Origin: Alkalispirochaeta americana
Lineage (GTDB): Bacteria; Spirochaetota; Spirochaetia; DSM-27196; Alkalispirochaetaceae
DNA length: 64,000 nucleotides
Assembly (NCBI RefSeq): GCF_900156105.1
Contig: NZ_FTMS01000010.1
Span: 62,001 to 126,000, forward strand
Direction of reading: 5' to 3'
Position numbers and translations under genes: made by a program. Below are positions 52,329-54,567 of the stretch, one piece after another; the first letter of the stretch is position 1; each line of letters begins with the position of its first letter. The notes below the pieces were generated by a model, which was not told where the DNA came from, searched no databases, and saw only the letters and a list, made by a program, of their open reading frames with translations.

Positions 52329-54209
52329 TTAGGAATTGAAAACCTTGATATAGTCCTGCAGAGTCCCGTCATTCATACAGACATCGATGATCTTTCGTCC
52401 CAGGGGATCAAGATCGTCCGTGAGGAACTGCGAGACTTCTTTCTTGAAGAAATCCGCAAGGATCTTCTGACCGGCGTCGTATCCCTTGATTCCCACCTCG
52501 GGCTGCTCGTGAACGTGGAGCAATCCTGCAGGCATGAGCTGTCCGGCAACCTTGAGCCGTTCCATGCTGTATCCCAGAAGAGGACAGCGGGACTCGATAA
52601 GCTGCTCGGGCCGGAACTTCACCGATCCCCGGCGAGCCATGTACTCCCGCAAAATCCACTCGGGCTGGAAGCCCACCTTGTAGGCACCGATATACTGGTT
52701 CGGGATAAGCACATAGGGGGTACCGGGCGTTTCCTGCGTCACTTTGAGCAGGAGATTTGCCTGGGTCACCTTTTTCCCCGTGGCAAAGGGCCAGTAGGAT
52801 CCTACACCTTCGCTGGTGAGCCCCTCGGTGGTAACGATACTGGGGTTGGCGTGTCCCCGGGGAGCCACCAGGCGCCAGAGCCATGCCAGGGCCGGCGGCA
52901 GGATATGCATCATGCCGATGATACCGTAGTTGGGGTTCTTCTTGGTTGAGGGAGGCGTCCGAACACCGAAACTCCTCACGTCCACGGCAACCGGATCGTC
53001 CACCACTTTGTCGATAAAGTGACGGGGCATGATCACCCGCGGGTTGGGACAGGGCTTTCCGGGTTCGTCCTGGATATGCTCCCAAGGCAGAATGGTGGAA
53101 CCGGGCTTTCCCTCGAGGTTCAGGAAGATCAGGGGCTCCGGCGGATTAATACAGAGCTTCTCAATGGCCGGCTCTTTGCCGTACTCATTGAGGTGATCCA
53201 CCCGGAGAAACCACCCTGCCTCGGCATCCTCAATCATGAGGCGTCCCGTGGTGCTGGTCTGGATCGAGGGATGGGCCAGGGCCATATCATCAGTGACAGG
53301 CTCCAGCTCACACGGATCAAGGAGCTCGAAGTAGATATCATCGCCGGTTATGGTGTTGTGGGCGAGACGAATCCGGCCATCCGGTTCCCGGTGAAGCTGC
53401 TGGGTCATCTCGCTCTTTCCACCGCCGCTGGCACCTTCGTGCATGATCACGAACTCATTGTCGTAGGGGGTGACCACCCGAACGGCCGAGCTGTGGAGGG
53501 TTACCCAATCCTCTTCCTCGCCAATGCTCAGAAGGATTCCGTAGACACCCTTCTTTGCGCTGGGACCGGGATAGAGATTGTAGGCAAAAAGCTCGTGCAT
53601 TCCCGGCAGACGGTTATGAACCACCACCTGCTTTCCGTCGAAGTGGGTGTGCCGGAAAGGAGGTGCCAGATAAATCACTGCCCGGGGCTCGAAGTTTTCA
53701 GGGATCTCATCGGCAGTGAAAAATCCCTGCAGGTCGGCCAGACCGGCCACGAAGAATCCCGCGTTCTCCGGAGCGATCAGGAGCGTGGGGTACCCCCGCT
53801 TCTTGTCTCCCGAGAGGAAGGGCAACACGATCAGGCGCCCCACATCCTCACGGAACCAGCGGAAGGTCTCCTGCCGGACTTCCTCGAAGGGCTGCTTGAA
53901 GCGGTTGTTCCAGTGGGGCTTGTCCGTGGGACGATCATCGGCGATGACCATCGCGTCGGGATCCCGCCGGCGCATATAGGGCTCCACGTAGTTTACGGCG
54001 GCTCCGTTTTTGCAACGGCCAACCGTGGCCTCCACGACACGCCCTTTGCCGGGAACATCGTAGGCGACCTCTACGAGGTCTTTATCAGTTTCCAGATAAG
54101 CGAGCTCCAACAGGTGGTCTCGGCTTTCCGGAAAAACCAGGTCAACACAGCAGAGCATCTCTCGGAGGTGCTCGCTTAAAACCAAGCGATCCAGTGGTGA
54201 CGTTTTCAT
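52329..54209 (-). CDS. DUF4914 family protein, PEPCK/HPr-kinase-like P-loop fold
   Basis: A 626-residue cytoplasmic protein that I recognise as DUF4914, a family of unknown function in spirochaetes and Bacteroidetes. The P-loop EGASGGGKS at residues 258-266 and the downstream TGDD at 288-291 resemble the kinase-1 and kinase-2 motifs of PEP carboxykinase and HPr kinase. The rest (FATGKKVTQANLLLKVTQ, RRGSVKFRPEQL) has no match to true PEPCK, so that name is avoided. Predicted leaderless: TACCCT ends six bases before the ATG at 54209. Confidence 0.75.
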   Translation of the reverse strand: MKTSPLDRLVLSEHLREMLCCVDLVFPESRDHLLELAYLETDKDLVEVAYDVPGKGRVVEATVGRCKNGAAVNYVEPYMRRRDPDAMVIADDRPTDKPHWNNRFKQPFEEVRQETFRWFREDVGRLIVLPFLSGDKKRGYPTLLIAPENAGFFVAGLADLQGFFTADEIPENFEPRAVIYLAPPFRHTHFDGKQVVVHNRLPGMHELFAYNLYPGPSAKKGVYGILLSIGEEEDWVTLHSSAVRVVTPYDNEFVIMHEGASGGGKSEMTQQLHREPDGRIRLAHNTITGDDIYFELLDPCELEPVTDDMALAHPSIQTSTTGRLMIEDAEAGWFLRVDHLNEYGKEPAIEKLCINPPEPLIFLNLEGKPGSTILPWEHIQDEPGKPCPNPRVIMPRHFIDKVVDDPVAVDVRSFGVRTPPSTKKNPNYGIIGMMHILPPALAWLWRLVAPRGHANPSIVTTEGLTSEGVGSYWPFATGKKVTQANLLLKVTQETPGTPYVLIPNQYIGAYKVGFQPEWILREYMARRGSVKFRPEQLIESRCPLLGYSMERLKVAGQLMPAGLLHVHEQPEVGIKGYDAGQKILADFFKKEVSQFLTDDLDPLGRKIIDVCMNDGTLQDYIKVFNS

Positions 54210-54215
54210 GCCCCT

Positions 54216-54245
54216 AGGGTACAATGTAGATGGGAAGACGTTCAA
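54216..54245 (-). promoter_or_regulatory. predicted leaderless promoter of the DUF4914 gene
   Basis: Minus strand TTGAAC (54245-54240), 18-bp spacer, TACCCT (54221-54216), six bases to the ATG. Confidence 0.55.
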
Positions 54246-54307
54246 GTAAAAAAATAGTGATTTTTTTAACGTTTTTCTACCAAAGAACCGCCAAAGAAGA
54301 AAAGCAA

Positions 54308-54336
54308 TTGACTTTTTAAGATCCCTGCATCACAAT
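54308..54336 (+). promoter_or_regulatory. promoter of the ferredoxin gene
   Basis: TTGACT (54308-54313), 17-bp spacer, CACAAT (54331-54336), followed by a ~35-base leader with AAAGGAG. Confidence 0.55.
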
Positions 54337-54378
54337 AATCCCCGAGTCAGCACACAAACACGTGCAAAGGAGTTGCGT

Positions 54379-54567
54379 ATGACCACGAAAGTTGATCCCG
54401 ATCTGTGTATTAGCTGTGCAATCTGCACCAACATGGTTCCCGATGTGTTCATCATGAACGACGATGGCCTGGCCGAGGCGAAACCCGGTGATGTTCCTGC
54501 TGACCTGGAAGATCAGGTCCAGGAAGCGATGGAGGAATGCCCCGCCGACGCCATCGTCATCGAGTAA
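54379..54567 (+). CDS. small [4Fe-4S] ferredoxin
   Basis: A 62-residue electron carrier. The cluster ligands are CISCAIC (CxxCxxC) near the N-terminus and the remote Cys in ECPADAI. One cluster only, as in Fer4_13/Fer4_15-type ferredoxins of anaerobes. The ATG at 54379 has AAAGGAG six bases upstream; an in-frame ATG two codons earlier is less well placed. Own promoter and terminator, so a monocistronic, probably highly expressed gene. Confidence 0.93.
   Translation: MTTKVDPDLCISCAICTNMVPDVFIMNDDGLAEAKPGDVPADLEDQVQEAMEECPADAIVIE

Follow-up and report, generated by a model that had tools for sequence, protein, structure and literature searches.

DUF4914 of Alkalispirochaeta americana, most likely an uncharacterised class of phosphoenolpyruvate carboxykinase as judged from its predicted fold and active-site residues

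Our analysis suggests that the DUF4914 protein of Alkalispirochaeta americana belongs to the phosphoenolpyruvate carboxykinase (PEPCK) fold family as a divergent, full-length representative, most likely catalyses the PEPCK reaction and would act as a PEP carboxykinase in the cell, a reading to which we assign a probability of about 0.66. On the strength of the predicted model, we have hardly any doubt that the protein has the PEPCK fold and that its site is intact. The prediction supports the fold, the domain architecture, and the conservation and equivalence of the key residues; substrate, phosphate donor and direction of the reaction are what we infer. PEPCK connects sugar metabolism with oxaloacetate and works at the PEP-pyruvate-oxaloacetate node, where it is decided which way central carbon flows.

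The gene, its setting and its family

The gene lies at 52329..54209 of the window, that is, the whole stretch of 64,000 nucleotides analysed here, and is read from the minus strand, with its ATG at 54209 and its stop ending at 52329. As the initial annotation had proposed, this is a genuine open reading frame: it encodes 626 amino acids, predicted to form a full-length two-domain PEPCK-fold enzyme, and the Pfam DUF4914 model (PF16260), for which the cut-off is 25.7 bits, scores 1044.7 over residues 13-623. Nothing besides DUF4914 was matched in Pfam at E <= 1, neither PF01293 nor PF00821 included, and NCBIfam gave no match. The host genome, of 3.31 Mb in 65 contigs and 95.6% complete, has DUF4914 as a single copy. 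Little on its function can be read from its neighbours in the window, which encode a PpiC-type isomerase, a nicotinate phosphoribosyltransferase and, divergently, a ferredoxin. The ferredoxin gene, of the single-cluster type (PF13370), is found at 54379-54567 on the plus strand, and shares with DUF4914 a divergent intergenic region of 169 bases (54210..54378). A sigma-70 consensus scan of positions 54150-54450 returned two sites, both on the plus strand, and none on the minus strand from which DUF4914 is read, so that the strong promoter previously attributed to this gene is unsupported, even though such an absence is weak evidence because the scan covers sigma-70-type promoters only.

The family is widespread. 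A scan of GTDB contigs yielded at least 594 pattern matches, at least 583 of which encode a DUF4914 relative, and the 80 retained from these include members of Clostridia, Thermoanaerobacter, Thermoanaerobacterium, Caldanaerobacter, Thermotogae, Bacteroidota, Planctomycetes and Spirochaetota; the nearest relative among the matches listed, from a "Spirochaetaceae bacterium", is 70% identical. DUF4914 was detected in 32 of 296 sampled Spirochaetota genomes and in the control genome of Thermotoga maritima, and a search of plasmids returned no relatives at E 1e-3. Our literature search for DUF4914 or PF16260, which covered open-licence papers only, found no paper on the family, and no report of its activity, structure or genetics.

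Predicted fold and active site

An AlphaFold2 model of the protein, built on an alignment (A2) of 96 homologues that are 50-70% identical to the window protein, reached a pLDDT of 93.9 and a pTM of 0.92. The best 50 rows listed by Foldseek against the PDB were all PEPCKs (E 3.3e-23 to 1.0e-20), and so were the best 50 listed by VIA-align (Z 26-31), which covered up to residues 1-626 of the model. The ATP-PEPCK of T. thermophilus (2pc9) aligned to the model with Z 31.1 over 487 residues at 2.8 Å, the PPi-PEPCKs 6k31 and 8e1u with Z 30.8 (580 of 626 residues, 3.2 Å) and Z 30.4, respectively, and the rat GTP-PEPCK (3dt4) with Z 26.9 over 522 residues at 3.2 Å. In the predicted model the two-domain PEPCK fold spans the whole DUF4914 chain and, because both domains match PEPCK, the likeness is not merely that of a common P-loop. 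The PEPCK-type fold guessed in the initial annotation is then recovered, and at full length against ATP-, PPi- and GTP-PEPCK, while its statement that the protein lacks the rest of PEPCK is wrong on the predicted model; no HPr kinase is among those best 50 rows. Within the chain, pLDDT is lowest at the P-loop (76 over residues 261-270) and at residues 451-470 (69-72), and these dips coincide with the elements expected to be mobile in a PEPCK, the P-loop and the lid, the latter placed by motif reading.

At the sequence level this relationship is beyond a single-sequence search and barely visible to a profile run against the PDB. In fact, phmmer returned only chance matches to cytochrome c (E 0.78), and the 96-sequence profile a single sub-threshold match, to the ATP-PEPCK 1j3b (E 0.23). 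Profile-profile comparison by hhalign, for which the ATP- and GTP-PEPCK alignments were small (11 and 12 sequences, all from Spirochaetota), gave E 1.1e-5 over 438 columns against ATP-PEPCK and E 0.0014 over 335 columns against GTP-PEPCK, with control values of 0.42 and 0.19 for reversed profiles and of 0.035 and 0.095 for the best of 20 column shuffles each. Because ATP-PEPCK against GTP-PEPCK scored E 0.0021 in the same pipeline, DUF4914 appears at least as near to ATP-PEPCK as the latter is to GTP-PEPCK. The mean column identity of 63% in A2 indicates strong constraint on the family across phyla.

Residues invariant in all 96 homologues are R80-R82, Y213, K219, K220, H239, S261, G264, K265, S266, E267, D307, D308, N389, R391, R417, W518 and R521. 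In E. coli PEPCK, R65 and R333 bind the substrate, K213, H232 and D269 the metal, T255 the Mg, and R449 the adenine. Within the R80-R81-R82 triplet (53964..53972, minus strand, as are all the features below), hhalign places R82 on R57 of the ATP-PEPCK L044, and we take it to correspond to the substrate-binding arginine in the RSP motif of ATP-PEPCK, R65 in E. coli. The K219-K220 pair (53550..53555) falls on K198-K199 of L044 in all three hhalign modes and is presumably the catalytic lysine pair of ATP-PEPCK (E. coli K212/K213), while H239 (53493..53495), aligned to H218 of ATP-PEPCK and H237 of GTP-PEPCK, would be the metal-ligand histidine known as H232 in E. coli, as we assume. The N389-P390-R391 stretch (53037..53045), with all three residues invariant, aligns to N318/R320 of ATP-PEPCK and N374/R376 of GTP-PEPCK, the substrate/phosphoryl arginine motif, and two of the three modes put R521 (52647..52649) on R446 of L044, which presumably makes it the counterpart of the adenine-contacting R449 of E. 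coli ATP-PEPCK.

Both motifs pointed out in the initial annotation are present in the window protein, with different fates. The P-loop EGASGGGKSE (residues 258-267, 53409..53438) aligns to those of ATP- and GTP-PEPCK, and nine of the ten residues do not vary among the 96 homologues, the tenth, G263, being glycine in 87. The TGDD motif (residues 288-291, 53337..53348), on the other hand, is not one of the family, since D290 is Asp in 15/96 homologues (Glu in 78) and D291 in 5/96. The conserved acidic pair is instead D307-D308 of PVxDDMA (53286..53291), which aligns to D283-D284 in the GDD of GTP-PEPCK, is unaligned against ATP-PEPCK, and is the likely kinase-2 metal-binding pair.

Against ATP-PEPCK, default hhalign finds R82, Y213, K219, K220, H239, N389, R391, F414, G415 and R521 identical, together with G259, S261, G262, G264 and K265 of the P-loop; S266 is paired with a threonine and D290 with a neighbouring aspartate, R412, R417, W518 and E267 meet residues that differ, and R81 and D307-D308 stand opposite gaps. 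The global mode reproduces this result save for D290, which is unaligned, and the Viterbi variant (-norealign) aligns the core only, retaining K219, K220, H239 and the P-loop. Against GTP-PEPCK, the default alignment has H239, S261, G264, K265, D307-D308, N389, R391, F414, G415, R417 and W518 identical, with the lysine pair shifted by a few residues and R82 outside the local alignment, and the global mode gave no usable residue mapping. The hallmarks of PEPCK present in DUF4914 are then the metal-site lysine and histidine, the kinase-2 aspartate pair, a P-loop of the form GxxGxGK(S/T) and the substrate arginines and, because the PEPCK-equivalent residues are all retained across phyla, an inactive enzyme is unlikely.

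Occurrence beside PEPCK and recurrent neighbours

GTP-PEPCK was found in 175 of the 296 Spirochaetota genomes and an ATP-PEPCK-type match in 35, and the 32 genomes with DUF4914 divide into 13 with GTP-PEPCK, two with an ATP-type match (one of them weak) and 17 with neither. When only genomes at least 90% complete are considered, both PEPCK types are missing from 12 of 22 with DUF4914 versus 56 of 209 without it (Fisher test, odds ratio 3.28, p 0.012), an enrichment that is suggestive only because related genomes were counted separately. The 17 PEPCK-less genomes include three with PEPC, five with PYC_OADA and six with the archaeal-type PEPC (PF14010), a marginal seventh match to the latter, in G130, lying inside its PEPC; five (G014, G026, G057, G104 and G124, three of which are at least 90% complete) have none of the five families, the PEPC and PYC_OADA counts covering DUF4914-carrying genomes only. 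The window genome itself has PYC_OADA alone of the five, with no ATP- or GTP-PEPCK family match. In light of the archaeal-type PEPC in those six genomes, we cut back the idea of an empty anaplerotic slot that DUF4914 would fill.

A second set consisted of 40 named DUF4914 genomes chosen from the 80. Strong ATP-PEPCK matches were seen in seven, weak ATP-type matches (E about 1e-16 to 1e-19) in seven and GTP-PEPCK in six, one of which also has a weak ATP-type match, for a PEPCK-type match in 19/40 and neither in 21. PYC_OADA is present in 13 of these 21 and PEPC in one, and in seven all five families are missing (L069, Clostridium oryzae; L101, Konateibacter; L116, L118, L119, L124 and L130). 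As to the co-occurrence with pckA raised in the initial annotation, PEPCK is absent from 17/32 Spirochaetota and 21/40 named genomes, and DUF4914 stands alongside it in the rest, so that the protein is often found where PEPCK is missing, though not always.

Our control searches of T. maritima found DUF4914 and PYC_OADA, and neither PEPCK nor PEPC; the pepck column is also empty for three Thermotoga species in Table 3 of PMC3561251. Thermoanaerobacterium saccharolyticum NTOU1 (L072, the same as G300) carries DUF4914 and shows no match to any of the two PEPCK and two PEPC families. According to PMC7380578, 13C flux analysis of T. saccharolyticum lent support to an enzyme that forms oxaloacetate from PEP, and a PEPCK, Tsac_2170, is annotated in strain JW/SL-YS485. 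Tsac_2170 could be either the DUF4914 gene of that strain or a canonical PEPCK.

Two further groups of proteins were seen along the way. Seven genomes (G303, G308, G310, G317, G318, G319 and G323, the genomes of loci L092, L103, L108, L089, L098, L100 and L114) encode a PEPCK-like protein of about 556-632 amino acids that matches PF01293 weakly (E 1e-16 to 1e-19), possibly a further uncharacterised PEPCK branch in Clostridia. In Spirochaetota genomes such as G006, G049, G142, G256 and G260, the PEPCK_GTP match has E near 1e-95 to 1e-100 versus the usual 1e-160, which marks a divergent PEPCK subgroup, and the proteins of G256 and G260 also match PF01293 weakly.

Two genes recur near DUF4914 in the 109 loci compared, with counts that are lower bounds as flanks are short or cut at many loci. 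MpsC (PF10057) is found in at least 22, upstream and on the same strand in at least 20 (L016, L021, L060, L063, L064, L066, L073, L076, L078, L080 and L082 among others), and a DUF3360 membrane protein in at least 10, downstream and on the same strand in at least nine (L062, L071, L073, L078, L083, L100, L105, L107 and L125). As a matter of speculation, DUF3360 may be a candidate transporter for the substrate of the DUF4914 enzyme. At six clostridial loci (L089, L091, L094, L102, L108 and L123), DUF4914 follows, as judged by eye, close behind lookalikes of purM, purN and purD. We also considered MpsC as a pointer to CO2 uptake. In PMC6689103, however, deletion of mpsC in S. aureus gave no phenotype and mpsAB functions without it, which makes mpsC dispensable for bicarbonate uptake, and outside staphylococci mpsC does not adjoin mpsAB. 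The MpsC link alone, therefore, does not mean CO2 supply; the pointer is further weakened by the absence of MpsC from 29 of the 32 Spirochaetota DUF4914 genomes, and MpsC is absent from the window genome as well.

Proposed reaction, rival readings and comparison with known PEPCKs

If DUF4914 is a PEPCK, it would interconvert oxaloacetate plus a phosphate donor with phosphoenolpyruvate plus CO2. R82 and R391 would hold oxaloacetate, and K220, H239 and D308 the Mn2+; decarboxylation would then generate the enolate, to which the P-loop (GASGGGKS), with Mg2+, would deliver the phosphoryl group as a mobile lid shuts over the active site. In fermenting anaerobes the direction is probably from PEP to oxaloacetate, for aspartate and C4 acids, conserving energy. 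The donor is more likely a nucleotide, with ATP/ADP to be considered first, then GTP, then PPi. Several findings run against this reading: the T-T of the P-loop is replaced by S-E, R412, R417 and W518 differ with respect to ATP-PEPCK, D307-D308 is not aligned to the ATP-PEPCK pair, and the Pfam PEPCK models are without a match. A strict replacement of PEPCK is also at odds with the 13 of 32 Spirochaetota DUF4914 genomes that keep GTP-PEPCK, and with the other route present in many of the PEPCK-less ones.

The initial annotation had left the choice open between an uncharacterised kinase and a carboxykinase-like enzyme. The predicted fold and the conserved catalytic residues speak for the latter, and an HPr kinase-type protein kinase/phosphorylase, using the common P-loop domain, is extremely improbable: its one point of support is that GASGGGKSE ends in SE, as we presume HPr kinase does, while a full PEPCK N-domain and the catalytic Lys, His and Arg are retained, and the Pfam HPr kinase model had no match at E <= 1. 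A PEPCK-fold enzyme that applies the same chemistry to some other beta-keto acid or phosphoryl acceptor, and is not the PEPCK of the cell, deserves more weight, even if we consider it unlikely. It would account for the GTP-PEPCK found alongside DUF4914 in Spirochaetota, for invariant family-specific stretches (RRRDP, NLYPGPSAKK and HEGAS) beyond the common catalytic core, and for the recurrent MpsC and DUF3360 transporter genes; however, the equivalents of the substrate Arg, the Lys, the metal His and NxR are all retained, and no alternative pathway gene recurs beside DUF4914. A compact PEPCK that uses PPi or some other uncommon donor, in bacteria whose glycolysis runs on PPi, seems rather improbable. 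PPi-PEPCK chains have about 1110 residues versus 626 here, and the invariant R521, aligned to what we assume is the adenine-contacting Arg of ATP-PEPCK, favours a nucleotide, against which stand the 6k31 and 8e1u alignments, with the highest coverage of all, and the PPi-dependent phosphofructokinase encoded by Thermotoga, Clostridium and Thermoanaerobacter (PMC3561251).

The known PEPCK classes are defined by their use of ATP, GTP or PPi, as set out in PMC8100219, and DUF4914 is most likely an uncharacterised class of this enzyme. We are evenly divided on the broader proposition that it is an unrecognised PEPCK class in hundreds of anaerobe genomes, the sole PEP/oxaloacetate interconverter in some and often part of an MpsC - DUF4914 - DUF3360 operon, which would explain the PEP-derived oxaloacetate of T. 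saccharolyticum and fill the Thermotoga PEPCK slot. Should DUF4914 be a working PEPCK, it would point to a mis-assigned gap in the metabolic reconstructions of many anaerobes, among Thermotoga, Thermoanaerobacterium, Clostridia and Spirochaetota, and could explain how some bacteria cope without the known PEPCK forms. A heat-stable, CO2-fixing and energy-conserving enzyme from a thermophile would, if this is true, suit C4 acid production.

In comparison with known systems, DUF4914 shares with ATP-PEPCK (PF01293, EC 4.1.1.49) the full-length fold (Z 31.1) and the colinear order of Arg, Lys-Lys, His, P-loop and NxR, but is only about 14-17% identical to it, has no PF01293 match, carries GGGKSE in place of GTGKTT in the P-loop, and has its kinase-2 pair in another sequence frame (PVxDDMA). 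It resembles GTP-PEPCK (PF00821, EC 4.1.1.32) in fold (Z 26.9, 522 residues aligned), in a length of about 600 amino acids and in the aligned DD, PNxR, FGxR and WE motifs, whereas identity is about 13-15%, PF00821 gives no match, and W518 and R521 of DUF4914 probably lie near the residues expected of the guanine site. PPi-PEPCK (EC 4.1.1.38; 6k31 and 8e1u), compared by structure alone, provides the highest structural coverage (580/626), but differs in its chain of about 1110 residues and in its donor, PPi. With HPr kinase/phosphorylase (PF07475), finally, the likeness presumably amounts to a P-loop ending in GKSE, whereas that Pfam model finds no match and DUF4914 has the complete two-domain architecture predicted for a PEPCK.
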